Below, one piece after another: positions 740-55,745 of a stretch of DNA of 56,553 bases. The DNA is from a virus. Numbering within the stretch: the first letter of the stretch is position 1; each line of letters starts with the position of its first letter. Where the stretch lies: positions 1 through 56,553 of the IMG/VR virus record IMGVR_UViG_3300047472_000137; one strand, written 5' to 3'. A model generated the notes under the pieces. It saw nothing but the letters and a program-made list of their open reading frames with translations. It did no database searches and was not told where the DNA came from. The position numbers and the translations under genes were made by a program.

Positions 740-774
740 GGGGCGCGGGAAGGTATCCCGTCTCACCGCACCCC
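740..774 (-). promoter_or_regulatory. GGGATAC-loop hairpin, copy A
   Basis: On the minus strand an 8-bp stem (GGGGTGCG with CGCGCCCC, one G-U pair) encloses a loop containing GGGATACCT. It sits upstream of the gene starting at 714. It belongs to a family of at least seven such elements in the leftward arm; see the findings. Confidence 0.7.
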
Positions 775-786
775 AAACTCAGCCGA

Positions 787-1095
787 CTACTGGCGGGCGT
801 TGTTCAGTGCCTCCACCGCTTTGTCCTGAACATCCTTGGGCAGGCAGCCCGCGTGACGCCGTGCGCGCCGCATGTGGCTGTAGAACATGACGCCTTCCCA
901 GTCCCCGTCTTGCTGGCACCCCAAGAGGCAACGCACCTTCCAATGCGTGTCACTTCCGGGGTAGGGGGCGAGAGGCTGCCAGCCCAGCTCACGAATGCGA
1001 GCGAGGGCCTTTTCAGCGCTCGCAATGTTGCGCTTGCTCATCCCCGTCTTCAATACGGGGTCGAGGTCCGGGAGTTCCGGGGTTTCCTCAGTCAT
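787..1095 (-). CDS. Hypothetical protein (102 aa)
   Basis: Starts MTEETPELPDLDPVLK at ATG 1095, which has a GAAAGG ribosome site about nine bases upstream. The N terminus is acidic. The middle part (WQPLAPYPGSDTHWKVRC, LLGCQQDGDWEGVMFYSHMRR, HAGC) carries three Cys and two His residues that could bind zinc, as in small phage proteins with a treble-clef or zinc-ribbon fold. That is inference; the family is not recognised. Confidence 0.65.
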   Translation of the reverse strand: MTEETPELPDLDPVLKTGMSKRNIASAEKALARIRELGWQPLAPYPGSDTHWKVRCLLGCQQDGDWEGVMFYSHMRRARRHAGCLPKDVQDKAVEALNNARQ

Positions 1096-1111
1096 TGCGT
1101 GTGGCCTTTCG

Positions 1112-1258
1112 TTAGATGTCGTCTGCGTGGCGCCGTGCGTGAATGAGGTCAACGCCCCCGTCTGGACAGTTGAGGCAGGGTATGACGTTCTCCCGCCTCC
1201 ACTGCTCTACGGTGACCAGGACCAATCCGCCGCACCCTCCACAGCTCATATGCAACAT
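1112..1258 (-). CDS. 48-residue zinc-ribbon protein
   Basis: A short gene, MLHMSCGGCGG to DDI, that fills the gap between its neighbours. It has two Cys pairs, CGGC near residue 6 and CLNC near residue 28, about 20 residues apart, as in zinc ribbons. An AAAGGA ribosome site lies six bases before ATG 1258. Hairpin copy B (1287-1319) lies about 30 bases upstream, at the same distance as other hairpins from their genes. This strongly supports a real gene. Role unknown; a nucleic-acid-binding or regulatory protein is likely. Confidence 0.7.
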   Translation of the reverse strand: MLHMSCGGCGGLVLVTVEQWRRENVIPCLNCPDGGVDLIHARRHADDI

Positions 1259-1286
1259 GCGCATTCCTTTCTAGGGACAGAGCAAA

Positions 1287-1319
1287 GGGCGCGAGGACGT
1301 ATCCCATTTCCGCGCGCCC
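1287..1319 (-). promoter_or_regulatory. GGGATAC-loop hairpin, copy B
   Basis: On the minus strand GGGCGCG pairs with CGCGCCC around a loop that contains GGGATACGT. It precedes the zinc-ribbon gene starting at 1258. Confidence 0.75.
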
Positions 1320-1324
1320 CAAAC

Positions 1325-2128
1325 TCAGTGCCTAGTGTGGATCTGGCGCGTACGCGCCTTCAGCTCCTCGGCCGCCTCACGCTCTATGAGGAGGTCCAGT
1401 TCCGTAGGGAACTCCACCTCCTCCTCTGGGCCGTAGCCCATGGCCTCGCGCATGTAGACAGCCCACATCCCCTTTGCGTGGTCGTAGGCGTGCTGCCACT
1501 GCGTACGCGCGTCCCGGAACTGCGTCACATTGACGGGGTCCGGGAACCGTGCCAAGTGCCCCCACCAGTAGCGGTACTTGGCCAAGGGACGGACGGCGCG
1601 GTTAACCGCGATCCACGCGTTCCGCTCCGAGATTACGAATGCGTCCCGGACGCATTCGGCAGTAGGCGGGTTGTCCACGGTCGGGGTGATGCGATCCCCG
1701 ATGATCTGCGAATCGGGCAAGAGCCCGTGCGCCTTCCGGTACTCCCAGAGGCGCATGGTGTCCCACCCCTTCAGCACCCCGGAGTGCTCGCCACACGCGA
1801 CCATGCTGAGCCGCTTGCCCTTGTACTCCGTAGTCCGAACGACTGCCCCGGGATAAGGGCAGTGCCCCCGTTCGTCACTGCGGAACACCTCACACAGGAA
1901 CTCGCCACGAACGGCCGTCTGTGCCGCTTCACGAGTAGGCGCCTTAGCCACCCAAACGTGTTCCCCGTGCTCCCCCATTCTGGGCACCCATTCATAGGCG
2001 TACCACTCCTCATTGAGCCCTTCGTCTTCCCCCTTCGCCCGCACTACGTAGCCGCTGTACTCAACACCAGCAACACCCCCCGTGAGTCGCCACATGCCCT
2101 CATAGCCCGACTGAACCCATTCCGGCAC
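1325..2128 (-). CDS. Hypothetical protein (267 aa)
   Basis: The largest gene of the left arm. GTG 2128 follows a GGAAGG ribosome site. The N-terminal 60 residues (SGYEGMWRLTGG, YEWVPRMGEHGEHVWV) look like a small beta-rich domain. The C-terminal half is helical and charged. There are four Cys residues but no clear zinc motif. No family recognised and no operon partner gives a hint. Confidence 0.6.
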   Translation of the reverse strand: MPEWVQSGYEGMWRLTGGVAGVEYSGYVVRAKGEDEGLNEEWYAYEWVPRMGEHGEHVWVAKAPTREAAQTAVRGEFLCEVFRSDERGHCPYPGAVVRTTEYKGKRLSMVACGEHSGVLKGWDTMRLWEYRKAHGLLPDSQIIGDRITPTVDNPPTAECVRDAFVISERNAWIAVNRAVRPLAKYRYWWGHLARFPDPVNVTQFRDARTQWQHAYDHAKGMWAVYMREAMGYGPEEEVEFPTELDLLIEREAAEELKARTRQIHTRH

Positions 2129-2181
2129 TCAACTTGCCTTCCCCTAAAGCCTCTGAGCTTGTCTCTAGAGACTGGCCGAGT

Positions 2182-2231
2182 AGGGCATGGGTGATCCTGC
2201 CCGGATATCCGGGTGACGCTTCCCATGCCCT
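2182..2231. other. Intergenic cruciform / RNA hairpin
   Basis: AGGGCATGGG (2182-2191) pairs with CCCATGCCCT (2222-2231), and inside it lies the perfect palindrome CCCGGATATCCGGG (2200-2213). It separates the stop of the 2249-2428 gene from the start of the 1325-2128 gene. There is no T-run, so it may be an RNA processing or attenuation structure rather than a simple terminator. Confidence 0.55.
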
Positions 2232-2248
2232 CTACGGTCAACCGCTAG

Positions 2249-2428
2249 CTACTTGCAGATGTGGCCGAACGCGTCTTGCCCGTGGGAGCAAGCGCCGTCC
2301 ATGACACCCTCGTTGAACGCGTCCACCTTCACGCGGTCCTCGCGCGTCTGCATGTGCTGGTAGGTGAGGCCGACCGACAGTGCGGCCGTGAGTACGGCCG
2401 TGACGAGAGCGATGATGAAAGTGCGCAT
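2249..2428 (-). CDS. Small membrane or secreted protein (59 aa)
   Basis: Starts MRTFIIALVTAVLTAALSVG, a single hydrophobic N-terminal helix, followed by a short polar tail with two Cys residues (GACSHG, GHICK). It could be a membrane anchor or an exported Cys-containing peptide. The start overlaps the stop of the upstream gene (GTGATG), suggesting coupling. GTG 2431 is an alternative start. Function unknown. Confidence 0.6.
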   Translation of the reverse strand: MRTFIIALVTAVLTAALSVGLTYQHMQTREDRVKVDAFNEGVMDGACSHGQDAFGHICK

Positions 2429-2679
2429 CACGCGGCCACCTCTCCCGTGATGTAGTCCCGTTCGTGCTCCCGCTTACTGATCAGGAGCCCGTCAAAGGTC
2501 TGGTGGGGGAACGGGATGAACCCGCTCTGTCCGTCCCTTCGGACGAAGTGCAGCCCGACGAGTCCGGTAGCCAGTTGCACCACGCTGTCAGTGGCGAGAC
2601 ACCTACTCTTGCCCAGAATGAGCGTGTGCCTACGGGTGACCTTTGCGAGGATGAGCCCGCCTGTTTCCCAGTTGCGCAT
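2428..2679 (-). CDS. Hypothetical protein (83 aa)
   Basis: Starts MRNWETGGLILAKVTRRHTL at ATG 2679 after an AAGG ribosome site. It continues with a beta-rich stretch (VVQLATGLVGLHFVRRDGQS) and ends REHERDYITGEVAA. No family recognised. Hairpin copy C lies about 45 bases upstream. Confidence 0.6.
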   Translation of the reverse strand: MRNWETGGLILAKVTRRHTLILGKSRCLATDSVVQLATGLVGLHFVRRDGQSGFIPFPHQTFDGLLISKREHERDYITGEVAA

Positions 2680-2723
2680 TTGCCTTGCTCCTTCTCTCCG
2701 CTCCTGTGAGCGGGCATGAGAAA

Positions 2724-2757
2724 GGGCGCGGAGACGTATCCCTAAATCCACGCGCCC
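2724..2757 (-). promoter_or_regulatory. GGGATAC-loop hairpin, copy C
   Basis: On the minus strand GGGCGCG and CGCGCCC form the stem and the loop contains TTTAGGGATACGTCTC. The same extended loop occurs in copies D and E, although their stems differ. Confidence 0.8.
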
Positions 2758-2809
2758 AACTAACCCAAATCCGCGGTGACTCTGTGCCGGCGGGGACTAC
2801 TCCCCGTGC

Positions 2810-3187
2810 TCAGTAGCAGTACGGGAGACCCGCCCGCATCTCACACGCGTGGCAGTTGCCTCCGTCGTTGCAGCACTTGACTAGGTCCGTATTGGACCCG
2901 GCAACGTGCATGTCATAGACAGTGGTGATGTCCTCCCGGTACAGGCGCACCTGAGCGTTGCGTCTGGCCGCTTTCTCGTCGTGGGCGAGGACATCGAGGG
3001 TGTGGACAATCGCTCCCACATCGTTCCGGCACTCCACAGTCATCCGGCGACGGATGAACCAATGGCACCCGTGCTTAAGCCAGCAACCGCACGGGAGTTG
3101 GGGCAGACCCTCAGTGAGTGCGAGTGCCGCTCGCTCGCGACGCTCACGCGCTTCGTCGAGAGCGCTACGCGCTTCAGTGCTCCGCAT
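2810..3187 (-). CDS. Cys-rich hypothetical protein (125 aa)
   Basis: Starts MRSTEARSALDEARERRE at ATG 3187, a charged helix. It contains CGCWLKHGCHWF near residue 33 and a C-terminal cluster (KCCNDGGNCHACEM, PYCY). The number and spacing of Cys and His suggest one or two bound metals. Only two bases separate it from the stop of the upstream gene. Function unknown. Confidence 0.6.
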   Translation of the reverse strand: MRSTEARSALDEARERRERAALALTEGLPQLPCGCWLKHGCHWFIRRRMTVECRNDVGAIVHTLDVLAHDEKAARRNAQVRLYREDITTVYDMHVAGSNTDLVKCCNDGGNCHACEMRAGLPYCY

Positions 3188-3189
3188 GA

Positions 3190-3582
3190 CTAGCGCACCT
3201 GCCACGGGTTCATGCAGCGCGGGGAAGCGCCGTTGTACGGGCCGCACTCCTCGCAGTGCTCGCCCATGTCCAAGCGGCACCCGCACGGCGTTACCCACTT
3301 GGACAGTGACCAGCCGTTCGGCTCCGCGTTCGCGAGCGGGATGCGCCCGACAGAGGCCGCCTGCCCGTCCGTGAACACGTACGTTCCTGCGCCGTCGTGG
3401 GTTGCCGTTTCGAGTAGCCACCACCCGGCACGAGTCGGGTGCGGCTCGGCCGGTCCCTCCACAACCGCTACGGCTTCATAGTGGAATCCCGTGATGATGT
3501 CTCCCCGCTTGAGGTACTGCGGCGGGACGGACGTACCCAAGTAGCGCTGAGCCTTGCGCCCAGCTTCCTGCCACGCGTTCAT
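3190..3582 (-). CDS. Hypothetical protein with a Cys cluster (130 aa)
   Basis: Starts MNAWQEAGRKAQRYLG at ATG 3582 with an AGGGGA ribosome site. The C-terminal third holds CGCRLDMGEHCEECGP and a further Cys, a pattern like a zinc finger. The downstream gene (2810-3187) has a similar CGCW motif, so the two may be related in fold. No family recognised. Hairpin copy D lies 53 bases upstream. Confidence 0.6.
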   Translation of the reverse strand: MNAWQEAGRKAQRYLGTSVPPQYLKRGDIITGFHYEAVAVVEGPAEPHPTRAGWWLLETATHDGAGTYVFTDGQAASVGRIPLANAEPNGWSLSKWVTPCGCRLDMGEHCEECGPYNGASPRCMNPWQVR

Positions 3583-3634
3583 GTGTATTCCCCTCACTCG
3601 ACTACTCGCCCTTATGGCGCAGTAGATAGAGGAA

Positions 3635-3666
3635 GGCACGGAGACGTATCCCTAAACCTCCGTGCC
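3635..3666 (-). promoter_or_regulatory. GGGATAC-loop hairpin, copy D
   Basis: Stem GGCACGGAG with CTCCGTGCC, a different stem sequence from copies B and C, with the loop TTTAGGGATACGT retained. Confidence 0.8.
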
Positions 3667-3684
3667 CCCGTGCTACCGACTACG

Positions 3685-3948
3685 TCAGTGCAGACCCATG
3701 CAGTTCTGTTCCACGGGGCCCATTCGGACCCCACACCGCCGGAAGTGGTTAGGCAGCACTTCCCCGCTCTTCTTAAGCGCTGATATGAGGGTGTCAAGGT
3801 CCCAACCCTCGTAATGCCAGAGAGCACCCTTACAGTCCTCTCCCGTTTCGGGGAACATCGCGCCGAGAGATTCGGCCATGTGTTCCTCGCACAGGAACAA
3901 ATCAGCAGGCTCGTAAGAGAAGTAGCGCTCATGCTCACGCTTAGGCAT
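3685..3948 (-). CDS. Hypothetical protein (87 aa)
   Basis: Starts MPKREHERYFSYEPADLFLC. It contains four Cys residues (LCEEH, DCKGA, RRCGV, NCMGLH) and several His, so metal binding is possible. It follows its upstream neighbour after two bases, as in an operon. Function unknown. Confidence 0.6.
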   Translation of the reverse strand: MPKREHERYFSYEPADLFLCEEHMAESLGAMFPETGEDCKGALWHYEGWDLDTLISALKKSGEVLPNHFRRCGVRMGPVEQNCMGLH

Positions 3949-3950
3949 GC

Positions 3951-4202
3951 TTAGACCCCCTCAACGACGGAGCGGCCCGAGAGGCGCACTGCCAGTGCGT
4001 GAGCGTCGACCTTATTCAGGCCGCGCCCACCGTAGAAAGGACGCTCACCGGTCGCGTTGTACGAAACGACCATGAACAGCCCTTCGTCGTGCTGGTCAGG
4101 CTTGACGCGGTATCCCTTCGAGCCGGTGAACACCCACCGGTTGCCGATGAAGGACATTCCGTTGGTGTTGCCCGTCGGGTAGTTCGTAATTCCCTCGCTC
4201 AT
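3951..4202 (-). CDS. Hypothetical protein (83 aa)
   Basis: Starts MSEGITNYPTGNTNGMSF at ATG 4202 with a strong GGAGAGG ribosome site. The sequence is beta-rich (RWVFTGSKGYRVKPD, FMVVSYNATGERPFYGG) and ends in a short helix with LAVRLSGR. Function unknown. Hairpin copy E lies about 45 bases upstream. Confidence 0.6.
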   Translation of the reverse strand: MSEGITNYPTGNTNGMSFIGNRWVFTGSKGYRVKPDQHDEGLFMVVSYNATGERPFYGGRGLNKVDAHALAVRLSGRSVVEGV

Positions 4203-4245
4203 GTCACCTCTCCTTACTCCATTACGACTGTCGCAATGGGTGAGA

Positions 4246-4285
4246 GGGCACACAGGAGACGTATCCCTAAATCCACTGTGTGCCC
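4246..4285 (-). promoter_or_regulatory. GGGATAC-loop hairpin, copy E
   Basis: A 10-bp perfect stem, GGGCACACAG with CTGTGTGCCC, around a loop with TTTAGGGATACGTCTC. This is the longest stem in the left-arm set. Confidence 0.8.
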
Positions 4286-4345
4286 GACTCCCCTACGAAA
4301 GCGGGTTACATGATCAAAATTGGAGCTCTGGCCGGCATGGGCCTA

Positions 4346-4642
4346 CTACTGGACGGGAGTTACGCGGACGTTGAACCCGTTCACCAGCGCATAGCCCGTG
4401 CGGTAGATATCCGCAACAGGTCGAGTGCTCCACTCAGTCACGCACTCCGTGAACACGCGGACGGAGGAAACCATGTTGTTCCACCCGCGCACTGTGTAGA
4501 CGAACGGCGCGTCATCCCCTGCGCCGATAACGCTCACATCAAATGCCTCGTGAGCCCGGTACTCCCGCTCAAAGGAGAACTGAACGAGCGGGATGGACTC
4601 CCGCTTACGCTCACGGGTAGCAGGCTCGAAAACAACGCTCAT
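4346..4642 (-). CDS. Hypothetical protein (98 aa), first gene of the left arm
   Basis: Starts MSVVFEPATRERKRESIPL; an AAGGGG ribosome site lies close before the ATG. It has a beta-rich body with a single Cys (FTECVTEW). It is the first gene of the leftward arm and next to the 1.8-kb non-coding region, so its promoter should lie in 4643-4800. No family recognised. Confidence 0.55.
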   Translation of the reverse strand: MSVVFEPATRERKRESIPLVQFSFEREYRAHEAFDVSVIGAGDDAPFVYTVRGWNNMVSSVRVFTECVTEWSTRPVADIYRTGYALVNGFNVRVTPVQ

Positions 4643-5173
4643 TGCATGCCCCTTAAGGGTTGCTGTATGGCCCGTGTTGGCCCTTTGGTGTGCCTAACCG
4701 ACACTCCCCCCGACTCACTCACTCTCAGGGGTTTAAGGCGCACTCAGATGCCCGGGTGAGTATCAGTCACCGTGGACACTGGACGCCGGACACCCCATGT
4801 TGAACGCGTGAGCCGTAGGCAATCTCAGTTGTGCATTCCCGGCCTGTTTGGCTGTCCCGCCGGGCGAACGCATGCGTCTTACTGCGGTTACTGTTCAACG
4901 CGCTTCATCTACCCCTGTGTGTGGCTTACTCGCATTCACACGTTGCTCGTATCGCGCTACTCAATCCACGTTTGAAGAGTGGAGAGCCTGCTAACGACGT
5001 CCGCAACGTTGCTGGCACGCACAGAGACAGACTCGGCTTGTTTATGGCCACCGCATTCTGTCTCGCATGAACCTATTGGCTATCGGGGACGGTTAGTTCC
5101 CCGCTTAGCAGTGCACCCCGAGCCTTTCGGCCTCTAGCCCTGTCATCGCGCAGTCTCGGCCGCGCTACAGCAA

Positions 5174-5199
5174 CTTGGGATCACACCCCTATTCACTTC
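5174..5199. other. Hairpin CACACCCC / GGGGTGTG
   Basis: An 8-bp perfect inverted repeat with a 10-base spacer. No T-run follows on either strand, so it is not a classical terminator. Nearby GGGACGG/TTCCCC and GGCCCT/AGGGCC hairpins suggest that this stretch is structured if transcribed. Confidence 0.5.
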
Positions 5200-5461
5200 G
5201 GGGTGTGGGCACTGCCCTATGGAGTTCTCAAGGAAGTACGCAGACGGCCCTAGAAGGGCCCTGACGCCACTGGTTAGGAATCGGTGCGGAGCTATTGGGC
5301 TAGGCCCGCTCACGCGCTCTCAGGGCCGATTCCGGGCCCGGTGAGGGATGGACACTCACCCGTGCTTTGAGTGGTGGGGACCGTGCGCTCATTTGCTTGC
5401 CTGCCTCTCCGTTGCCCGCTGCTCGGTTGCTGCGGTGACAGGGAGGACACTTCCGGGATTC

Positions 5462-5479
5462 ATCACAGGAAGCAACTTT
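5462..5479 (+). repeat. 18-bp dispersed repeat (stoperator candidate), site 1
   Basis: ATCACAGGAAGCAACTTT; differs from the consensus ATCACAGGAGGCAACTTA at two positions. It is in plus orientation, against the direction of the leftward genes. Confidence 0.75.
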
Positions 5480-5593
5480 GAGCATGCAAGGTTGAGAGAG
5501 ACGCGCTCGCGCACGTTGGGGCCACAAAACCCCAGGTCAGAGGGGGTGCAATCCTTCGCCGGCAACTATGACATAGGGGTGCAAATAGGACTC

Positions 5594-5611
5594 ATCACAG
5601 GAGGCAACTTA
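5594..5611 (+). repeat. 18-bp dispersed repeat (stoperator candidate), site 2
   Basis: Exact consensus ATCACAGGAGGCAACTTA. It looks like a ribosome site on the plus strand (AGGAGG), but no gene follows it. Confidence 0.85.
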
Positions 5612-5775
5612 TTTGCATACCCTTTACCTTTACAAGCCGCAGAATGGGACATCTCGGGCCGGCATTTTTGCAGTGCCTTGAATATGAAAGGACCCTGCAT
5701 AAGTGATTCTGACGGGCCGTCATACGGACATTAGGGTGCAAATGTATTTACGCAACAACCCTGCATATACCTATC

Positions 5776-5979
5776 TGACACCAGGTCAGGTATGCGCTAT
5801 GCCCTTTATGGGTGCTATATGGGTGACCCACGTCACATATATGACGCAGGATCAGGTTGCGCTTAGCCCGTATCTGACACCTAGTCAGGGATTAGGCACG
5901 TAGCTGAGTGCCTGTTAGGTGGAAGTGATGCTCATCTGACATTCCATCACGTCTCCACACCCAACCTGACACCACGTCA
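5776..5979. promoter_or_regulatory. Cluster of six TGAC-N5-GTCA palindromes
   Basis: Sites at 5776-5788, 5824-5835 (4-base spacer), 5842-5854, 5875-5887, 5937-5949 and 5967-5979. Three share TGACACC followed by (A/G)GTCA or AGTCA-type arms. Clustering of dyads within about 200 bases in a non-coding AT-rich region is typical of operators for a dimeric repressor or of binding sites for a replication initiator. Confidence 0.65.
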
Positions 5980-6036
5980 CCTGACGCTCAATTACCTCGC
6001 GCTATTGATGCACCAATTACGCAATGCATCATTATC

Positions 6037-6053
6037 ATTCACAAGCGCACAAG
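6037..6053 (+). repeat. Direct repeat ATTCACAAG(C/G)GCACAAG, copy 1
   Basis: Matches 6166-6182 at 16 of 17 positions, 129 bases apart, in the same orientation, inside the AT-rich non-coding region. Could be a pair of initiator or regulator sites. Confidence 0.55.
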
Positions 6054-6165
6054 TAATTAATGTTACCGCACCACTAAGTGATGCACATATACGGGGGTAA
6101 TATAACGAAAATGCTGTCACGAGGACCGCAGGGGCGCCTTCCTTCCATCGTGTACGAGTTTCAAC

Positions 6166-6182
6166 ATTCACAAGGGCACAAG
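6166..6182 (+). repeat. Direct repeat ATTCACAAG(C/G)GCACAAG, copy 2
   Basis: Second copy of the 17-base repeat at 6037-6053. Confidence 0.55.
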
Positions 6183-6399
6183 CCCTAATCACCCGGACCT
6201 CGTTTCAGGCCCCCAAGTGGCCGGCACCAGGCACCGCGGACCCATCTGAGGCCCTCTAATGTTGCATCACATGGGTGAGGTAACAACATTATTGTTGCTT
6301 GGCTCACACTCTGGGCCTTTTGTGTCCCGATCCTGCTCAGAGGACACGTACGTAATCTATGGAGCCGGTTGGTATACCCGGCTCCGGAGACACAGAGAA

Positions 6400-6423
6400 G
6401 CCCCCTCCCGCGAAGGAGGGGGC
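6400..6423 (-). terminator. Terminator after the methyltransferase gene
   Basis: GCCCCCTCC and GGAGGGGGC form a 9-bp stem with a short CGCGAA loop, 23 bases beyond the stop of the methyltransferase. On the minus strand it is followed by TTCTCTGTGT, a weak T-rich tail. A second hairpin, GGAGCCGG/CCGGCTCC, follows at 6361-6385. Confidence 0.65.
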
Positions 6424-6445
6424 CGCTCATGAACACCTCAGGGTG

Positions 6446-7570
6446 TCACTCGATCTCTGCTCTCCAAGCTCCTCGACTGATCGTGCAGACACCCTCTGGA
6501 CTGATCTCGACCCGGGCATTAGTCAGCGGAAGTGACCCCTCTATGTTGAGTCGGAGCCGAATACGCTCCAATTCGTCGTAAAGGCGCCTAGGTCCGCCTT
6601 GATGCACAGTGGGGAAATCCTTCCAAACACCTTCAGCACGAGCCCAGGAACCGTCAGGGTGGATCATCCACGCCTTTCGAGTCCGATCATCATCGTTCGA
6701 GAAGTAATGTTGGATTCCCGGCACGGTCAATTCGAGCATTGACCACACGTCATAGGACTCAGGGACATTCAAGACGGGGAATCGGCCCATGGAGACCTCT
6801 TCCCCCTCCAAATTGGACACTTCCTTGAATTCAGGGCCCATATTGGAGTAGTTAGCACCCTGGCGAGTCTTCATGAAGCTCGCTCGGTCCGCTTCTACGC
6901 GGCCAATGGCGCTTCCATCCTCTTGTTTATCCGCTGTGACGATAAGCCAGGTGCCGGCCAGGGTCGTAACGAGCCTTCCACCAGGGCGAAGGGCCTTCAG
7001 CCACGGTGCCGGAACGCCCCTCGTGGACACCGTGGCAATGATGCGATCGAACGTGCCAGGAAGAGGCCCCGTGATGTCGCAGACGGCCATCTGAGGGCGA
7101 AGGCCGATGTCATGCAGTCGGTTGGCCGCTGCTGTCACAAGGTAGGGATCGACGTCCAGGCTCGTCACATGCTCAGCGCCAAGGCGTCGACAGGCCAAGG
7201 CAGTTCCGTAGCCCGTTCCTGTCGTCACAAGGATGTCTGAGTCATCGGCAATCATCGCGTGGCGGTACATCTGGACCACCAGAGAAGGCAGCGTTGAGGA
7301 TGACGTGGGCAGGCCGTCAGCCTGCTTCTCCTCCGCCTGGTCCGCATGCTCCTCTCCCACACGGGTTACAAGGGTGCGGTTGGAGTACGCCGCAGCCATC
7401 CACGCATCCGGGTCCTGGGGGCCGTCCTGAAGCGCCCAACGCCCCCCACTGGCCTTCCACCAGTGAGGGACGAAGAGATGCCGTGGAGTGGTCGCCAGGG
7501 GCTCACGCCAGCGTGAGAAAGGGTGAGCGACTTCTTCAGCGAGTCGAGCAGCGTGAGTTGTCCACTCCAT
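6446..7570 (-). CDS. PIMT-like protein methyltransferase (FxLD-system type)
   Basis: A 374-residue SAM-dependent methyltransferase of the protein-L-isoaspartate methyltransferase fold. The SAM-binding motif I is DILVTTGTGYGTALACRRLG, followed by the acidic strand VTSLDVDPYLV, and FDRIIATVSTRGVPAPWLKAL. The N-terminal segment TTPRHLFVPHWW and the long C-terminal extension fit the family annotated as 'methyltransferase, FxLD system' in Streptomyces peptide-natural-product loci. ATG 7570 follows a GAGAAGG ribosome site that overlaps the stop of the radical SAM gene, so the two are coupled. The target is probably a peptide or protein side chain; no FxLD-type precursor was found nearby. Confidence 0.75.
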   Translation of the reverse strand: MEWTTHAARLAEEVAHPFSRWREPLATTPRHLFVPHWWKASGGRWALQDGPQDPDAWMAAAYSNRTLVTRVGEEHADQAEEKQADGLPTSSSTLPSLVVQMYRHAMIADDSDILVTTGTGYGTALACRRLGAEHVTSLDVDPYLVTAAANRLHDIGLRPQMAVCDITGPLPGTFDRIIATVSTRGVPAPWLKALRPGGRLVTTLAGTWLIVTADKQEDGSAIGRVEADRASFMKTRQGANYSNMGPEFKEVSNLEGEEVSMGRFPVLNVPESYDVWSMLELTVPGIQHYFSNDDDRTRKAWMIHPDGSWARAEGVWKDFPTVHQGGPRRLYDELERIRLRLNIEGSLPLTNARVEISPEGVCTISRGAWRAEIE

Positions 7571-10490: not shown

Positions 10491-10513
10491 CCTGATCCCG
10501 TACACTCAGAGCT

Positions 10514-10548
10514 GAGGGCCCTCCCCACGTATCCCGGGGAGGGCCCTC
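10514..10548. terminator. Perfect 13-bp hairpin with GGGATACGT loop (copy H)
   Basis: GAGGGCCCTCCCC (10514-10526) and GGGGAGGGCCCTC (10536-10548) are perfectly complementary; the 9-base loop reads GGGATACGT on the minus strand, identical to the loop core of the left-arm hairpins. It lies between convergent genes (DUF397 and the DUF2637-like gene), so it may end transcription in both directions although no T-run is present. Confidence 0.7.
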
Positions 10549-10567
10549 ATTTGCTGTCTCGCCGAGG

Positions 10568-11376: not shown

Positions 11377-12219
11377 TCAGAGGGAGTCGCGGCAGTCGGC
11401 GCAGATGCCGCCGGGGTGTCCGGCTCGGTAGGGCCGGTGGCAGTCGGGGCACTGCTCCCGCTTCACGGGGGCGGCAGTAGGTGCCGGCGGCGGGGTCTCA
11501 CTCCGCTTCGGCTCGTGGTTCTTGAGCCGGTAGGAGACCAGGGCCACCGCGGATTCGATGGAGTCAGGCAGAGCCCGAGTCAGGGTCTTGATGATCTCCA
11601 TCTCGTGGAAGCCCTCAGAGAGCCACTGGGCAGCCAGCGGGGCGAGCCGCATGGATTCCCTCATGGAGAGCTTCAGTTGGGGCTCAACACGCCCCAGGCG
11701 GCCAAGGCAGGCCACGGCTCGACCGGTCATCGCGTCAGCGATGGCGGAAGGCCGGTCGTTGTTCGGGAGAGAGGAGCCCTCCCCTCCCTGCTTGCTCTCG
11801 GCCTCTCGGCCCTCAAGCTCCTCGACGAGCTCAGGGGGGAGGTCATTTTCCTTCGGGTTCTTTACTCCCTTGGGATAACCGCCGACAGCCTGACCGGTCG
11901 GCTCCCCGACCGTCGCCATGTGGTCAGTCGGGTTGTCCGTGACAGTCGTGAGGGTGACCCAACGACCCGTCTCGGGGTCCTGGACCTTCGCCCGCTTCAC
12001 GTAGCCGTGCGAGATCAGCTCGTTCATGGCGTTGGAGACAGAGCGTCGGCCGTTGGGGACCTTGGCAGTGACGCGCTCGACCGTGGCGCCGTTGGCGTCC
12101 GGGAGCGACAGAAGCCGGGTGAGGAGTCCGACAGCCTCAAGGCTGAGGGAATCGTGACGCGCGATCCCGTTAGGAATCTGCACGTAGGCACGGGTGTGCC
12201 TAGTACGCTGGACCTGCAC
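11377..12219 (-). CDS. HTH protein of plasmid/prophage type
   Basis: A 280-residue protein. Residues 1-90 form a winged HTH of the type found at the start of Streptomyces plasmid and prophage replication-associated proteins: YVQIPNGIARHDSLSLEAVG, VPNGRRSVSNAMNELISHGY. A disordered middle follows. The C terminus carries a zinc-ribbon CPDCHRPYRAGHPGGICADC. The likely job is DNA binding in replication or partitioning; it pairs with the DUF2637-like gene downstream. GTG 12219 is the start that fits the conserved N terminus, though the ribosome site is weak. Confidence 0.65.
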   Translation of the reverse strand: MQVQRTRHTRAYVQIPNGIARHDSLSLEAVGLLTRLLSLPDANGATVERVTAKVPNGRRSVSNAMNELISHGYVKRAKVQDPETGRWVTLTTVTDNPTDHMATVGEPTGQAVGGYPKGVKNPKENDLPPELVEELEGREAESKQGGEGSSLPNNDRPSAIADAMTGRAVACLGRLGRVEPQLKLSMRESMRLAPLAAQWLSEGFHEMEIIKTLTRALPDSIESAVALVSYRLKNHEPKRSETPPPAPTAAPVKREQCPDCHRPYRAGHPGGICADCRDSL

Positions 12220-12455: not shown

Positions 12456-12545
12456 AACCGCAGCTCAGCCCCTTCCTAGGGGTTAGAGCGTTTGGAGGTC
12501 CTTCTCCCAGGAGAACGACCCCCGAACGCGTCATTGCGTGCTTCA

Positions 12546-14060
12546 ATGGACACCATACACAGGAAGCAACTTAAGGGGGAGAAGTTGGCGACAGAAAGGC
12601 CGTGGTGTGCCTACTGCCGGATCTCGGATGCGGACCTTGCAGAGCTTCGCTACCTCGTAGCCGCAGGGACGCTCACACCAGAGCAGGCCAAAGAGAGGGA
12701 GAGGAAGGGAGTCCTCAAGCAGCGGGAGGACTTGGCCGCCCTCGCGGCCAGCCTCGGCGTCTCCGTCGTCTGGTACGAGGACAACAACCTCAGCGCCTTC
12801 AAGCGCAAGGTGAAGCGCAAGGACTTCGAGCGGATGCTCACGGACCTTGCCGCCCCAGGTCTGCGCGGTGGGATCCTCGCCATCGACATTGACCGAATCA
12901 CCCGTCAGAACCGGGACCTTGAGAGGGTCATCGACATCTATGAGGGCACCAAGCTGAGTCTTGGGTTCCACACCCTCTCTGGGCAGAACTTTGACCTCTC
13001 CACCCCTGACGGACGGTTCTCAGCCCGCATCATGGTCAGCGTGGCCAACAAATCGTCTGAGGACATGTCCCGCCGACTCAAGCGGGAGATGTTGAGGAAG
13101 GCCCGAGAGGGAGAGATCTCGGGCGGGCACACGCCCTTCGGTTGGGAGGAGGACCGCAAGACGCGGCGGCCCAAGGAAGCCGACTTCGTCGCCGACCAGA
13201 CTGAGGCCGGAATCAAAGGTGACTCGGTCGCCACGATCACCAACCGCTTCAAGGAAGCGGGCTTCGTCGGCCGAACCGGCAAGCCGTTCGACCGCACGGC
13301 GGTACGTCGCATCATGCTCAACCCTCGGAACGCGGGAATCAGGGTCTACCAGGGGGAGCCGCTCAAAGACGACGAGGGCAACTACATCCTCGGCGAGTGG
13401 GACGTGTTGGTTGAGATCGAGAAGTGGGAAGCCCTCCGAGCCAAGTGGGCAACCAACCAGGGCGCTGGGAAGGCCAGGGAGTACCGCATCAGCACACTCC
13501 TTTCCGGCATCCTCCGCTGTGGTGCCTGCGGTACTCGCATGGTTGCGGCTAACAGCGCATCCAAGTACCCCAAGTACAGGTGTGCCGATGGTGCCGGCGG
13601 CTGCGGCAACGTGTCGATCATCCGAAACAAGACTGACGAGGTGATCCGCAAACTCGTGTCTGAGTACCTGGAGCGGGCGGCGGCAACCCTCAGCCTTGCC
13701 CAGCCTGAGGAGGAGCCTTGGGCCAAGGCTCCCGAGCTGCAAGAGGCCGAGAGTGAACTGAAGAAGATCAAGGCCATGTACAAGGAGGGGACGATCAAGG
13801 CCACCACGTACGCGATCCTCCTGGACGACCTTGAGGCCAAGGTGGACACCCTCCGGGGCGAACGCGCCTTGCATCAGGCAACGCGGCCCGACTTGAAGCC
13901 GTCCCTAGACGCGCTCAAGGACGGGTGGGGGAAGCTGTCCGTCGAGAGGCAGCGGGACACGATCCGTTCGGTTCTCCGGTCCGTCCTCGTGAACCCCACT
14001 ACCCGGAGAGGGGCAGGAATCGACCTCTCCCGACTGACCCCCGTCTTCCAGGACGCGTGA
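12546..14060 (+). CDS. Large serine integrase
   Basis: A 504-residue recombinase. Residues about 15-175 are the catalytic domain, with the nucleophile Ser in CAYCRISDADL and the arginines in AIDIDRITRQNRDL and SEDMSRRLKREMLRKA. The recombinase domain (GGHTPFGWEEDRKTRRP, AVRRIMLNPRNAG) follows, then a zinc ribbon (RCGACGTRM...YRCADGAGGCGN) and a coiled-coil (ELQEAESELKKIKAM). This is the standard order for phage integrases such as phiC31, which act on attP/attB without supercoiling. ATG 12546 gives the canonical length; TTG 12534 and TTG 12492 are in frame. One copy of the 18-bp repeat lies 10 bases into the gene. attP was not identified. Confidence 0.93.
   Translation: MDTIHRKQLKGEKLATERPWCAYCRISDADLAELRYLVAAGTLTPEQAKERERKGVLKQREDLAALAASLGVSVVWYEDNNLSAFKRKVKRKDFERMLTDLAAPGLRGGILAIDIDRITRQNRDLERVIDIYEGTKLSLGFHTLSGQNFDLSTPDGRFSARIMVSVANKSSEDMSRRLKREMLRKAREGEISGGHTPFGWEEDRKTRRPKEADFVADQTEAGIKGDSVATITNRFKEAGFVGRTGKPFDRTAVRRIMLNPRNAGIRVYQGEPLKDDEGNYILGEWDVLVEIEKWEALRAKWATNQGAGKAREYRISTLLSGILRCGACGTRMVAANSASKYPKYRCADGAGGCGNVSIIRNKTDEVIRKLVSEYLERAAATLSLAQPEEEPWAKAPELQEAESELKKIKAMYKEGTIKATTYAILLDDLEAKVDTLRGERALHQATRPDLKPSLDALKDGWGKLSVERQRDTIRSVLRSVLVNPTTRRGAGIDLSRLTPVFQDA
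12556..12573 (+). repeat. 18-bp dispersed repeat, site 5
   Basis: TACACAGGAAGCAACTTA, two changes from the consensus, within codons 4-10 of the integrase. A bound repressor here would block integrase transcription. Confidence 0.7.
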
Positions 14061-29277: not shown

Positions 29278-29282
29278 GCAAT

Positions 29283-29545: not shown

Positions 29546-29550
29546 CTCAT

Positions 29551-29725: not shown

Positions 29726-29797
29726 TGACACGTAGCTCAATGGCAGAGCAGGGCACTGTTAATGCGCGGGTTGCTGGTTCGAGTCCAGCCGTGTCAG
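29726..29797 (+). tRNA. tRNA-Asn (GTT)
   Basis: Acceptor TGACACG/CGTGTCA, D-arm GCTC...GAGC, anticodon loop CTGTTAA with one mismatch in the stem, T-arm GCTGGTTCGAGTCCAGC. Confidence 0.85.
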
Positions 29798-29824
29798 CTA
29801 GGCATGATCTCACTAGACACGGTG

Positions 29825-30802
29825 TCAGAGTCTCTTCAGTACATCAGGAAAGAGGACATTGGCGTCGATCTCTCTGTAATGAGAAACGCACGAAAGCCTG
29901 GCAAGCTGAGCCTTTACTCCCGCCCTGAAATCCCTCTGCTCCAGCTCACCATGCCAGCCCCACGAGAGCGCCATATCCAAACAATCCCCTTTACTGAGGA
30001 ACCCCATGAGGCACTTGGTAAATACATCACGCCAACCCCCGTACCCCACCACGACAACGTAGTTTCCCTGGAGCCGTCTTTCAAGCGAAGAGGCCAGTCT
30101 CGTTCTCGTGCGTGACAACTGATACTGCGTATGCAGGGTTTCCCCCTGTCGCCAATATCCGTGCACGTGGATCACATTGATTGCGGAATGCTGAAGGGAG
30201 GGAGGTATTCTCCCATCAGTGGAGTCCATGCACTGTACGTCGCACTGCCCCCCTGCCTGTTGAACGGAAAGCTCAATGAGCGGATCAAAATTTGTGGTGA
30301 TAACTGGGCCACTTTTTCCGGCAGCTTTTATTCCAGTCAGGACGCGGCCAAAGGCTTTAACCCCTTCAGGCAGCTTCCAGGCAGCCGACGTCTCCAGATC
30401 CTCAAGGGCGACTTCGTTCATCACGAGACGCCGCGCTTCCTCCCGCGTCAACTCCCCGAGAACGTCACGCTGACAGGCCCGAAGAACACCAATGCGAATT
30501 ATTTCATTCAGCCGCTCATGACCCCTGCTGCCTTGAATGAAAGAAGCCGCCCTCTGATATTTCACGGATGACAAGTGATCATCTACGGCCATGTCGAATG
30601 CTTCGAAGGCTTTAACGAGGCCACCGACACGCGTCGTGTCATCTAGACTCGCACGCATGGCATGAATGTATTCAGCGACATCCGGGATCGACGGTCGCGT
30701 AAGACCGGAACCCACGACAAAGGCGATCTTCCTGTCTGATCCAGGTCCGATCCTGTAGATCAGCTGTTCAGCCAGACGGTCAGCATCGTAAATCTCGATC
30801 AT
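29825..30802 (-). CDS. SIR2-like protein (candidate NADase)
   Basis: A 325-residue protein with the SIR2 landmarks: KIAFVVGSGLTRPSIPDV at the N terminus (NAD-binding loop), PVITTNFDPLIE (TTNYD-like), and NVIHVHGYWR (catalytic His region), then NYVVVVGYGGWRD. This is the SIR2-like family used by many bacterial defence systems to destroy NAD during phage attack. ATG 30802 has a GAGGGG site. It lies on the minus strand between tRNA-Asn and tRNA-Trp, all of which are on the plus strand, so it is an independent insertion. No partner gene is adjacent. Superinfection defence is the favoured, unproven, role. Confidence 0.8.
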   Translation of the reverse strand: MIEIYDADRLAEQLIYRIGPGSDRKIAFVVGSGLTRPSIPDVAEYIHAMRASLDDTTRVGGLVKAFEAFDMAVDDHLSSVKYQRAASFIQGSRGHERLNEIIRIGVLRACQRDVLGELTREEARRLVMNEVALEDLETSAAWKLPEGVKAFGRVLTGIKAAGKSGPVITTNFDPLIELSVQQAGGQCDVQCMDSTDGRIPPSLQHSAINVIHVHGYWRQGETLHTQYQLSRTRTRLASSLERRLQGNYVVVVGYGGWRDVFTKCLMGFLSKGDCLDMALSWGWHGELEQRDFRAGVKAQLARLSCVSHYREIDANVLFPDVLKRL

Positions 30803-30913
30803 TGAGCACCCCTCATTTGAGGATCGCCTTAGGGCGTCTCTGCGAAGAGGATGTCGCTCTTTGTTGATCATACAGGCCGGATGAGCTTCATGCATCTCCG
30901 GTTCTGCTGACAA

Positions 30914-30986
30914 TGGGACGTAGCTCAATTGGTAGAGCACCGGTCTCCAAAACCGGACGATGTTGGTTCGAATCCAACCGGCTCAG
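30914..30986 (+). tRNA. tRNA-Trp (CCA anticodon)
   Basis: Anticodon arm CCGGT-CTCCAAA-ACCGG and T-arm GTTGGTTCGAATCCAAC; the acceptor stem TGGGACG/CGGCTCA has one mismatch. Confidence 0.85.
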
Positions 30987-31124
30987 CAAGGCCCGAAAAT
31001 AGCGCCCTGACCGGCGCAACGATAGGGCTAGGGGAAGCTCACGAGCGAGCACCCGCCCGAGTACCTAGGGCTAGTCACCCGATGGGAAACGGCGGCGGAC
31101 CGGTGCAAGTCCGGTACCCGACCT

Positions 31125-31197
31125 CTGGTCGTAGCTCAGTAGGCAGAGCGCCGCATTTGGGATGCGGAGGCCGCAGGTTCGAGACCTGCCGACTAGA
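31125..31197 (+). tRNA. tRNA-Pro (TGG)
   Basis: Acceptor CTGGTCG/CGACTAG, anticodon arm CCGCA-TTTGGGA-TGCGG, T-arm GCAGGTTCGAGACCTGC, discriminator A, then encoded CCA (31198-31200). Confidence 0.9.
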
Positions 31198-52691: not shown

Positions 52692-52874
52692 TCAGAACTT
52701 GCGATCCAGGTCAATGGTCATGACCGGAGACCACTCCTTGATGGGCAAGGGCTTGACCTTCCCCGCCTTCACTTCAGCCTGTGCCAACCGGTTAGCCTCC
52801 TGAGAGTCGTTGGCATCCACGAACACGACTGCCGTGGCGTGCGCATGAAGCGCGACGCGATACCTCTTAGCCAC
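52692..52874 (-). CDS. Hypothetical protein (60 aa)
   Basis: MAKRYRVALHAHATAVVFVD and NDSQEANRLAQAEVKAGKVK. A beta-alpha small protein. GTG 52874 has a GGAAGGGG site upstream; a longer frame is not needed. Similar small proteins with an 'A.A.V.VDA.D..EA..LA' pattern are common in actinobacteriophages; function unknown. Confidence 0.65.
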   Translation of the reverse strand: MAKRYRVALHAHATAVVFVDANDSQEANRLAQAEVKAGKVKPLPIKEWSPVMTIDLDRKF

Positions 52875-52947
52875 TGCGTTCCCCTTCCAACGAGAAGCGG
52901 CCCACCCCCGAAGGGATGGGCCGCACTCAGACGCTAGAGCTGCTCGG

Positions 52948-53280
52948 TTACTTGTTGGCCGCCGTGTACGCCTCCTTGATGGAAGCAGGGACACGGCCCC
53001 GCTCGCTCACCTCGTAGCCGTTGGCCTTGGCCCACTTACGCAGTTCCTCGGCGGACGGCTCACCCGCAGCGCGGACAGGCTTGGACGACGCGCGCCCCCG
53101 CTGGCTACCAACCCGACGACCAGCCGTCAGGTACACCGCCAGAGCCTCCCGCAGCTTCGCAGCGTTCTTGTCGCTCAGGTCGATCTCGTAAGTCTTGCCG
53201 TCCAGCGCGAACGTCACGCTTTCGTCCGCCTCGCCACCGTCGATGTCGTCGACAAGGAGAACCTGAACCTTCTGAGCCAT
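52948..53280 (-). CDS. lsr2: Lsr2-like nucleoid-associated protein
   Basis: A 110-residue protein that closely follows actinobacterial Lsr2. The dimerisation domain is MAQKVQVLLVDDIDGGEADE, VTFALDGKTYEIDLSDKNAA and KLREALAVYL. The C-terminal DNA-binding domain is LRKWAKANGYEVSERGRVPA, with the RGR loop that enters the minor groove of AT-rich DNA. Host Lsr2 silences foreign AT-rich DNA; a phage copy could compete with it, silence phage genes in the lysogen, or organise phage DNA. Hairpin copy G lies 49 bases before its start. Confidence 0.93.
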   Translation of the reverse strand: MAQKVQVLLVDDIDGGEADESVTFALDGKTYEIDLSDKNAAKLREALAVYLTAGRRVGSQRGRASSKPVRAAGEPSAEELRKWAKANGYEVSERGRVPASIKEAYTAANK

Positions 53281-53328
53281 GGTGTGGCCTTTCTACCTAA
53301 GTGCGATTCGTACACGATCGGGCCGCCA

Positions 53329-53347
53329 TCCGTCGTATCCCTACGGA
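53329..53347 (-). promoter_or_regulatory. GGGATAC-loop hairpin, copy G
   Basis: Short stem TCCGT/ACGGA around AGGGATACG on the minus strand, upstream of lsr2. The stem is the shortest of the family. The rest of the 53281-53569 gap holds no gene that I can support. Confidence 0.6.
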
Positions 53348-53569
53348 AGTCGTCCCGCTAATTGATCTGCGCCGTAAACTTGGTGCGTGTTACAGCGAGA
53401 GTCCCACAGTCCCGCTTTCTGCTCAAGTTCGATTCATTCTCTCCACCTCCCCTCTGACCACTTCCGGCAGAGGGGCTGATAGCGCCCCTGAACCGCCCGG
53501 AAAGCCCTGACCTTGGGCATTGCCCTAGGTGACGCGGGATTGCAGCCCAGAGGCTTAGAGGCGTTCACC

Positions 53570-54220
53570 TTAGACCTCCTCCACGGGCGTGAACTTGTCC
53601 GGGGTCCAGTAGCCGACCAGCGCCCCCGTCTCGACGTGATAGACGGGCTTACCCAGGGACGTTCCCGAGCTGGGCTCGTCGTGCTCCTGGTCGTGCTCCT
53701 GGTGCTCGTTGTCCTTCGGGGCGACGGACCACCAGACCTGTGCGTTCCAGGCTCCAGAGAACAGCTCGTCTCCGGATTCCAGGGAGCGAATCGAGTAGGA
53801 CCCACTTCCCACGTGGACGATTTCCGCCCGCTCCCCTTCGGTGGGTTCAGCGGTTCGCTTGCCGCCCTTGCCGCCGAACAGGATGGGCATCGGGGCGTTC
53901 ACCCTCATGCCGGGGATGTCCTTGAGCGGGCCGTTGGTCCAGTCCCCGGGCTGCGGGGGCTTGGTGCGGTTGAGGGTGCCGTGGTCGAGGAAGAGCGTCG
54001 TCCACGTGGACCGTGCTTCGGGGTCCGTGCCTTCCAGCCCCACGCAGACGCGAATGGCGTCCTGCTTGGACCCGTTGCGCGTGCCCTTCATGTACTTGGG
54101 CGGGGCCAGGAGGGTTCCCTCCCTGGTGACTTCAGCGCCTCTCGTGTCGACGCCGAAGGCTGTCACGTAGTCCCCGGCCTTGATGCCCTTAACCAGCTTG
54201 CCGAGTGCTTCTTTGGGCAT
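53570..54220 (-). CDS. Hypothetical protein, DUF2815/ssDNA-binding-like (216 aa)
   Basis: MPKEALGKLVKGIKAGDYVT, then GTLLAPPKYMKGTRNGSKQD, mostly beta-rich, with an acidic His/Glu-rich segment (NEHQEHDQEHDEPSSG) and a final HVETGALVGYWTPDKFTP. The middle is compatible with an OB-like single-strand-binding fold, but no clear signature is present. It is followed by the ATPase-like gene's product in the same unit (14-base gap). Confidence 0.5.
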   Translation of the reverse strand: MPKEALGKLVKGIKAGDYVTAFGVDTRGAEVTREGTLLAPPKYMKGTRNGSKQDAIRVCVGLEGTDPEARSTWTTLFLDHGTLNRTKPPQPGDWTNGPLKDIPGMRVNAPMPILFGGKGGKRTAEPTEGERAEIVHVGSGSYSIRSLESGDELFSGAWNAQVWWSVAPKDNEHQEHDQEHDEPSSGTSLGKPVYHVETGALVGYWTPDKFTPVEEV

Positions 54221-54234
54221 GAGTGCTCCTCCTC

Positions 54235-55656
54235 TTACTGCTCAGCCGAGACAGGCTGAGTCGTCTTCTTCGCTGCCGTCTTCCGGGCAGCCCTCGGCCG
54301 TGCCGGCGGAGTAGCCGCGGTGGCCTTCTTCACCGGTGCCGCTGCCTTCTTGGCAGTCGTCTTCTTTCGTGCCGGTGCACGTCGAGCGGGAGCCTTCATG
54401 GGCTCGGGCTCGGGTTCCGGGTCGGGCTGACGCTCGACCAACCGGAAGATCGTGGGGTTCTGTCCGGGACGATTGATCCGGGGTTGGTGGGTCTCGATCT
54501 CCGGCATCTCGTCAACGATGTTGAGGATCTGAGAGGCCGTGTAGCGAGACGAGAGCGCTCGGTAAAGCTGCGTGCTCGTCATCTCGCCCCCGTGCATGGC
54601 GAGCTTCTCGCGGATCTTCACGTCTAGGGGCTGGACCGTACGCGCCCTCTGAACGTTGGTCTGAGCAATGAGTTGCTTCACGGAGGCAATGGAGAACTCG
54701 ACGAACGCGGTAGCAGCCTCAAGGGCCTTGACGCTTACGAGCGTCTTCCGCTCAGCGGCAGTGAGGATGCACGCGACCCGCATCACCTGTTCGTCTGCCC
54801 GCTCGATGAAGCACGAGACTTCCTCGGGCAACTCATCCATGGTGTCTTCGTACTCGGCCCGAAGGTCGTCGTATCGCTCTGCCGCAGCGTCGCTCAGCTC
54901 CATCTCGCGGACCTCCTTCCGGGCCCACTCGTAGGCGAGACGGAGAGAGGCACTGACCTTGATCTCAGTCAGCGGGTTGCGCCGGTTCTTCGCCGTCCGG
55001 ATCAACTTGGACCGCTCGACCATGACGGGAAGAATGCGGTTGTACGAGCCGCCCTGAGCCTCAGCCATGCTGATGTACTTGGCCCACGCTGCGGGTTGGA
55101 TGTGGGCATGGAATCCCAGGGCGGGAGTGTCAACGGTGACCTCGACTCTTTTACCGTCCTTCTTCGTGACGTTGGACAGTCGGCCCCCATCCCAAGCGGT
55201 TCGGAACACACCCGAGTATTTGGGGCAACGGTTCGTGAGCTTGAGCGTGGTCGACCACTCCTCATCCACGATGACCGCTCGCCCGTCCATGCCTCCTTCG
55301 GAGGTGAGCGAGTCTTGCTCGGTCTCGTACAAGGTCTGTACGAGGGACGGACCCGAGGAGATGCCTCCCTGTGTCCGCAACCCGAGGAAGTCCCCGATGG
55401 AGTCGCCCAACAAAGCCTTCGCGGTTGAGAGCGCGTATCCCTTACGCCCCACTCGCGAACGACCAGCAAGCGCCGTCCAGACCACAGACGGACGGCCGTT
55501 GGGCTGCAACACGTTGCCGTTCAGGGCAGCGGAGTACAGGGCCAGGACAGCCGCGTGAACTCCTACCGGATCCGCTTCGGTGTGCGGCATTGCTGCCTTG
55601 ACTGCCGCTCCGATCGGCCCGTATGCCATGGGCTCATAGCGGCCCTTCTCGTCCAT
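54235..55656 (-). CDS. DUF3987-like protein with histone-H1-like C-terminal tail
   Basis: A 473-residue protein. Residues about 10-400 have the layout of DUF3987 (primase/helicase-related) proteins: PNGRPSVVWTALAGRSRVGR (degenerate P-loop, no GK-S/T), RAVIVDEEWSTTLKLTNRCP and NVTKKDGKRVEVTVDTPALG. The C-terminal 70 residues are Lys/Ala/Pro-rich (ARRAPARKKTTAKKAAAPVK, KATAATPPARPRAARKTAAK), like eukaryotic H1 or Streptomyces HupS tails, and would bind DNA without sequence preference. ATG 55656 is chosen because hairpin copy F precedes it. Confidence 0.65.
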   Translation of the reverse strand: MDEKGRYEPMAYGPIGAAVKAAMPHTEADPVGVHAAVLALYSAALNGNVLQPNGRPSVVWTALAGRSRVGRKGYALSTAKALLGDSIGDFLGLRTQGGISSGPSLVQTLYETEQDSLTSEGGMDGRAVIVDEEWSTTLKLTNRCPKYSGVFRTAWDGGRLSNVTKKDGKRVEVTVDTPALGFHAHIQPAAWAKYISMAEAQGGSYNRILPVMVERSKLIRTAKNRRNPLTEIKVSASLRLAYEWARKEVREMELSDAAAERYDDLRAEYEDTMDELPEEVSCFIERADEQVMRVACILTAAERKTLVSVKALEAATAFVEFSIASVKQLIAQTNVQRARTVQPLDVKIREKLAMHGGEMTSTQLYRALSSRYTASQILNIVDEMPEIETHQPRINRPGQNPTIFRLVERQPDPEPEPEPMKAPARRAPARKKTTAKKAAAPVKKATAATPPARPRAARKTAAKKTTQPVSAEQ

Positions 55657-55720
55657 TGCCTTCCCTTCTGTTCGGTTGTGATTGCACGTCCACGCTTGGT
55701 GCGTGAGCGCCCATGGAATG

Positions 55721-55745
55721 GGGCCGGACGTATCCCACCCGGCCC
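55721..55745 (-). promoter_or_regulatory. GGGATAC-loop hairpin, copy F
   Basis: GGGCCGG pairs with CCGGCCC around GTGGGATACGT on the minus strand, 65 bases upstream of the DUF3987-like gene. Confidence 0.75.

Follow-up and report, generated by a model that had tools for sequence, protein, structure and literature searches.

Intergenic hairpins with variable stems and a phage-specific loop code in the right arm of temperate Streptomyces phages

The virus record IMGVR_UViG_3300047472_000137, a stretch of 56,553 bases analyzed here in full as the window, carries intergenic hairpins along its leftward early genes in which the stems differ from one another and the loop word, GGGATAC, is repeated. 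Related temperate Streptomyces phages have hairpins at corresponding junctions, with covarying stems and strand-specific RNA structure, and from one phage to the next the loop word is replaced at all sites jointly. Comparison of the genomes shows that the loop is a phage-specific code that behaves as a specific recognition site. We see an even chance that it is a tag in the nascent RNA on which a phage-encoded factor docks to control passage through the leftward early operons of these phages.

The window contains 15 copies of GGGATAC, where 4.6 would be expected; none of 100 shuffles reached 15, and 14 of the copies lie on the minus strand. Strong stems, unlike one another, were found in six minus-strand copies, with z values of -2.3 to -6.0 from RNA folding of 71-nucleotide regions. 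The loop 6-mer is thus common to six distinct stems, compared with a maximum of 2 to 4 in 60 resampled genomes under the same rule. The hairpin copies are as follows.

4246 to 4285, minus strand: coded hairpin 1, the first in the leftward early operon; 10-base-pair (bp) stem, TTTAGGGATACGTCTC within the loop, z = -5.5, orthologous-site alignment
3632 to 3669, minus strand: coded hairpin 2; loop ttAGGGATACgt, z = -4.5
2724 to 2757, minus strand: coded hairpin 3; 7-bp stem, TTTAGGGATACGTCTC within the loop, z = -2.3
1286 to 1320, minus strand: coded hairpin 4; loop GGGATACGT, z = -4.5
740 to 774, minus strand: coded hairpin 5; loop GGGATACCT, long outer helix extending to the next Shine-Dalgarno sequence, z = -6.0
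55721 to 55745, minus strand: coded hairpin 6, 5' of a DUF3987-like gene; z = -2.6
53329 to 53347, minus strand: weak copy with a 5-bp stem, 5' of an Lsr2-like gene; z = -0.2
10513 to 10549, minus strand: additional coded hairpin at a convergent junction; perfect 14-bp stem, loop GGGATACGT, z = -4.4

An earlier sequence-only reading of the window had described seven of these copies as hairpins with variable, complementary stems and a fixed loop. That description holds, as does its finding of TTTAGGGATACGTCTC in three copies (at 2731, 3641, and 4256), and all seven copies are on the minus strand where it placed them; six are strong, and the one at 53329 to 53347 has only the 5-bp stem. The perfect 14-bp copy at 10513 to 10549 had been missed, and the loop of the copy at 740 reads GGGATACCT rather than GGGATACGT. 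The additional hairpin is flanked by converging genes, a 264-amino-acid gene ending at 10568 and a 71-amino-acid open reading frame (ORF) ending at 10490. The other GGGATAC copies, most of them within coding sequence, look like chance occurrences. A candidate non-hairpin site that seemed to follow the code before a DNA methylase gene (window position ~17560 and the relative G001) was rejected, as it coincides in part with the Shine-Dalgarno sequence that directly precedes the ATG.

The first and last 127 bases of the window are identical, and the record is therefore a circularized contig. Among named phages, Streptomyces phage Success is the closest to it (about 80% nucleotide identity), and window position 6137 corresponds to position 1 of Success. 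Window positions 1 to 4,642 and 52,700 to 56,553 form a single leftward-transcribed region; on this correspondence, the region is the right arm in the linear map of the phage and not the left arm to which the genes had first been assigned. Replication genes and gene order resemble those of cluster A mycobacteriophages.

Relatives were sought with the DUF3987-like right-arm protein; a scan with the single protein sequence gave no matches, but an alignment query found 39 further loci.

54235 to 55655, minus strand: DUF3987-like protein gene, downstream of hairpin 6, which served as the query for relatives

About two dozen further phage and prophage genomes were examined for loop words that hairpins with unlike stems have in common, and the code comparison comprises 15 phages with codes. 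In Success, the hairpins at the corresponding junctions closely resemble the window's in stem and flanks, and every loop reads AAGGACAC; the counterparts of the weak copy at 53329 to 53347 are stronger in Success and G001, with stems of 7 to 11 bp. The other loop codes are GTCGAGA in phage Ponzi, AGGGGTAC in G001, AGGGGTAG in G019, AGGGATG in G032, AGGGACAC in G002, ATGAGTAG in G003, GAGTAAG in G014, GTCGATG in G025, GTAGCAG in G026, TTGATGT in G006, and ATGGTGC in G007, and weaker codes were found in G008 and G015. Each phage has 4 to 9 copies with unlike stems and one loop word, and between phages the loop switches at all sites jointly. At the first operon hairpin, five phages retain the flanks (GGGGAGTC...TCACCC) and the greater part of the stem, and the loops read TTTAGGGATACGTC, AAAAGGACACTC, ATAGGGGTACAT, CTAGGGGTAGAT, and TTAGGGATGGC. 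A kept stem with a changed loop is also the pattern in seven phages ahead of the DUF3987-like gene and in five (the window, Success, G019, G032, and G003) at the convergent site. Within a phage, the flanks of coded hairpins differ from site to site, and strong copies of the code outside hairpins are almost absent. A scan of IMG/VR with TTTAGGGATACGTC returned unrelated chance matches only.

Two further genomes, G021 (L175 to L177) and G031 (L094), each have one hairpin with a GGAGAAG loop, their remaining hairpins being of the TTCG tetraloop type. This mixed state could represent a code in the course of gain or loss.

Code words lie in hairpin loops in 67 of 140 sense copies and in 1 of 58 antisense copies among the 15 phages, and random positions do so in about 1.2% of cases; since the words were picked from hairpin loops, the fair controls are the antisense count and the comparison of orthologous sites. 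At two orthologous sites, about 99% of the alignment cells are paired, and 3 and 4 pairs have changed on both sides, against 0 to 1 with slid partners. The covariance check that the sequence-only reading had proposed thus came out in favor of structure, and the outcome that it had named as fatal, a kept loop with lost pairing, appeared in reverse: the pairing is preserved among the relatives, and it is the loop that changes. In the phages with heptaloops, the loop is the exact 7-nucleotide code in 25 of 28 cases, in fixed register to the helix.

The earlier reading had taken compensatory change as a sign of structure, in RNA or as a DNA cruciform. Selection on the stems is borne out, and the evidence indicates that the selected form is transcribed-strand RNA rather than a cruciform or a plain double-stranded DNA palindrome, because imperfect pairs on that strand are far more often G·U than A·C: in a search that treated the two alike, coded stems contained 40 G·U and 9 A·C pairs against a background of 320:259, and unique stems gave 36:9 (P = 0.0008 versus the same background).

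Most window copies lie 25 to 65 nucleotides 5' of a start codon, and association with gene starts had first been taken as their defining property. The convergent copy, conserved in five phages with no start following it, and the hairpins of relatives without a code speak against that definition. In the annotated genome of Success, six right-arm hairpins start 8 to 49 nucleotides past a stop codon, one about 240 nucleotides past, and the eighth lies between two converging genes. Relatives without a code (e.g., L079, L081, and L084) have at the same junctions terminator-like tetraloop hairpins with similar stems and often T-rich tails. The base structure is accordingly a terminator-like intergenic hairpin into whose loop the code has been added.

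The mechanism that we propose starts from a terminator-like stem that lies just past a stop codon among the early genes and whose apical loop carries a tag of 7 to 10 nucleotides, one per phage and different in each related phage. A phage-encoded trans-acting factor would dock on this tag in the nascent RNA and decide whether RNA polymerase, or with lower probability the ribosome, moves on into the following block of early genes, the controlled step presumably being termination or read-through. In the wider sense, we infer that the hairpins serve transcription or translation control through the early operon by way of a phage-encoded loop-binding factor.

Several observations weigh against this proposal. 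The stems are GC-rich, but TTT occurs within 8 nucleotides in just 9 of 67 coded hairpins, and at least three T's in 33 of 67, so many of the coded hairpins would be weak as classical intrinsic terminators; a terminator scan of window positions 1 to 6500, which permits loops of up to 8 nucleotides, found no coded hairpin. The outer helices that reach the stop codon and the Shine-Dalgarno region would also fit translational control. When related stems (those with the same inner six pairs) are collapsed, the G·U:A·C ratio falls to 25:9 (P = 0.04). In G009 to G012, some right-arm hairpin loops contain the stoperator of the immunity repressor, a double-stranded DNA site in known systems, and a DNA-level reading therefore retains some weight. 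Finally, no gene family had a distribution that fully separates the 15 code phages from the 13 code-less ones.

A single host strain served for the isolation of both Success and Ponzi, whose codes differ; the host therefore does not set the code, and its reader is probably phage encoded. A binding site for a phage protein had been among the original suggestions, and the loop does behave as a specific recognition site, while no reader emerged among the gene families compared. The genes considered include the following.

4346 to 4642, minus strand: gp92 homologue, which opens the early operon and is its sole gene 5' of the first coded hairpin; confined to the window clade
11377 to 12219, minus strand: gp9 homologue, a winged-helix-turn-helix protein whose operon ends at the convergent coded hairpin; unsupported candidate reader

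The gp9 protein was rejected because 10 of the 15 code phages encode it and 2 of the 13 code-less phages do as well, G006, G007, and G008 lack it, and its two types ignore the code. Every one of the 15 code phages has a member of the gp73 family, but so do 6 of the 13 others, and the domains of the family are shuffled. The gp92 protein is unsupported, and gp28, presumably a DUF3310 protein from its appearance, is a universal gene for which the ORF set was too noisy. No N-like protein was identified in the family comparison, which a small, fast-evolving protein would escape. Among proteins specific to Ponzi and G025, or to G021 and G031, there was no convincing candidate.

An unlikely but serious alternative is that the loop serves as an operator in double-stranded DNA, a further type of stoperator inside terminator hairpins, at which a phage DNA-binding protein would block polymerase in the prophage. 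These phages do have L5-type repressors and phage-specific linear stoperators, located in the window as follows (the coordinates of the stoperator-like sites were converted by hand from sense coordinates).

27952 to 28443, minus strand: L5-type immunity repressor gene (phrog_357; tblastn matches to genes annotated as immunity repressors); its product presumably reads the linear stoperators and apparently not the loops
5592 to 5610, minus strand: linear stoperator-like site AAGTTGCCTCCTGTGATGA (window consensus AAGTTGC[CT]TCCTGTGAT)
near 5477, 26515, 25642, 19069, 12571, and 12346, minus strand, and near 12302, plus strand: other stoperator-like sites

The best Protein Data Bank match of the window repressor is 7r6r, the TipsytheTRex repressor (E = 0.014). 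The linear sites combine a common A[CG]TTG half with a phage-specific half, giving AAGTTGC[CT]TCCTGTGAT in the window, AGTTGCCTCCTGGGT in Success, and ACTTGAAACTGTCA in Ponzi. Their positions in code phages are the left arm and the promoter region of the right end, and they are missing from the right-arm body with the coded hairpins. Four relatives without a separate code (L072/G009, L073/G010, L074/G011, and L075/G012) do have right-arm stoperators (e.g., AGTTGGGATGTGA), most of them in the loops of hairpins of up to 15 bp; elsewhere in these genomes, stoperators are mostly not in loops. The coded hairpins thus take the place of right-arm stoperators, and their orientation with transcription matches that of stoperators (PMC9283540, PMC6550527). 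An expectation-maximization motif search was dominated by codon-like motifs except in G009, G010, and G016.

The loops of G009 and G010 prompted the simpler idea that each loop is the same phage's L5 stoperator, which was rejected, as code phages carry separate linear stoperators of different sequence. The same difference counts against the operator alternative. Nor does the immunity repressor track the loop code: the repressors of G014 and G026 are 76% identical and their codes (GAGTAAG and GTAGCAG) unrelated, whereas Ponzi and G025 have GTCGA in common in their codes and repressors that are 43% identical. For a DNA site a hairpin would be dispensable, but almost no strong copies lie outside hairpins, and seven bases are few for a DNA operator.

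L5-type stoperators, known from cluster A and reported for R4-like Streptomyces phages, nevertheless resemble the coded hairpins in being many asymmetric intergenic sites in one orientation whose sequence is phage specific and switches as a set between relatives. The tags too are intergenic and oriented with transcription (67 sense against 1 antisense hairpin copies). Stoperators, however, are linear duplex DNA of about 13 bp bound by a monomeric repressor, whereas the tags are 7 to 10 nucleotides in the loops of covarying RNA hairpins, lack the A[CG]TTG half and a linear consensus of at least 13 bp, and have a specificity that does not follow the immunity repressor. Papers on stoperators and repressor structure (PMC9283540, PMC6550527, PMC10276819, PMC13313380) make no mention of hairpins, and no description of loop-coded hairpins in actinophages was found in the open-access literature.

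Translation control, in which the hairpin and its outer helix would bring the stop codon close to the Shine-Dalgarno sequence or mask the latter while a loop-binding factor tuned initiation, we consider improbable. In many copies, an outer helix does pair the stop-codon side with the Shine-Dalgarno side, as at window positions 740 to 774, and the mean duplex energy of the outer helices is -16.5 kcal/mol versus -13.9 kcal/mol for mismatched flanks. The outer helix is unclear in some copies, however, and the copy at the convergent junction has no downstream gene start.

It is very improbable that the hairpins are ordinary terminators or RNase-processing sites whose loops are common by ancestry or gene conversion and have no reader. 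Tetraloop hairpins at the same sites in other relatives would suit such an origin, but within a phage the stems and flanks vary around an identical loop of 7 to 10 nucleotides, between phages the reverse holds, and conversion of such short tracts between unlike stems is implausible.

Kissing hairpins typically have exact 7-nucleotide loops. The loops could accordingly pair with a trans-encoded antisense RNA, as in RNA immunity of the P4/P1 type; this we find hardly credible, because words complementary to the code are about as frequent as chance predicts and sit in no conserved place or hairpin.

The least probable reading is a promoter element or a start-associated sequence (SAS) like that of cluster K, which the sequence-only reading had proposed as the closest parallel. 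Most copies do precede a start codon by 25 to 65 nucleotides, and the likeness extends to several copies among nonstructural genes, one orientation, and an SAS word that begins GGGATA. The SAS of cluster K, however, lies 3 to 7 bp from start codons, and the extended SAS (ESAS) has conserved arms and variable spacers with no support for pairing (PMC3203893), whereas here the arms vary and the loop is conserved. The coded sites do not match the 13-bp GGGATAGGAGCCC, have no conserved 17-bp arms with a variable spacer, and in one case lie where two genes end. A search of window positions 1 to 6500 returned no pairs of sigma-70-like hexamers. The 17-bp palindromes of cluster O (Corndog) are also many intergenic repeats, denser toward the right end, and have invariant arms, a variable 3-bp center, and no orientation (PMC4351075).

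The lambdoid nut/boxB sites read by N proteins are RNA hairpins whose apical loop is bound by a phage-specific factor in early-operon transcription. By analogy, the anatomy of the coded hairpins may be called boxB-like, for they too are RNA hairpins with a phage-specific apical loop, and their distribution stoperator-like. They differ from nut, which comprises two sites with boxA near promoters, in having 4 to 9 copies at the ends of gene blocks with loops of 7 to 20 nucleotides. An N-boxB pair is described for P22 (PMC11480772).

Other features of the window were recorded. Positions 4643 to 6450, at the right end, span about 1.8 kb in which there are no clear genes, with many short inverted repeats and two stoperator-like sites, and are likely the early promoter and genome-end region. 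A cluster of at least five tRNA genes (Rfam) lies at 29282 to 31197 on the plus strand, between the immunity repressor region and the terminase genes, where Success has eight; Rfam covariance models at the gathering score matched only tRNAs in the window. A serine integrase is encoded at 12492 to 14060 (plus strand), and the lysogeny region of Success instead has a tyrosine recombinase. The 9-mer TGCCGGCGG/CCGCCGGCA is enriched about 17-fold on both strands (21 copies in the window versus 1.2 expected), also in most window-clade relatives.

The joint change of the loop at 4 to 9 unlike hairpins per phage strongly indicates a rapidly evolving RNA-binding specificity of phage origin in actinobacteriophages. 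A tentative extension, which we rate short of even, is that the loops form a second self/non-self code, separate from that of repressor and stoperator, in which each phage's own RNA-binding factor would pass or stop polymerase only at matching loops; RNA-level immunity or antitermination specificity would then diversify as fast as operator codes. If the reader exists, the hairpins would be an RNA counterpart to stoperators, would offer fifteen natural specificity variants for dissecting how a protein recognizes a hairpin, and might provide orthogonal switches for Streptomyces.

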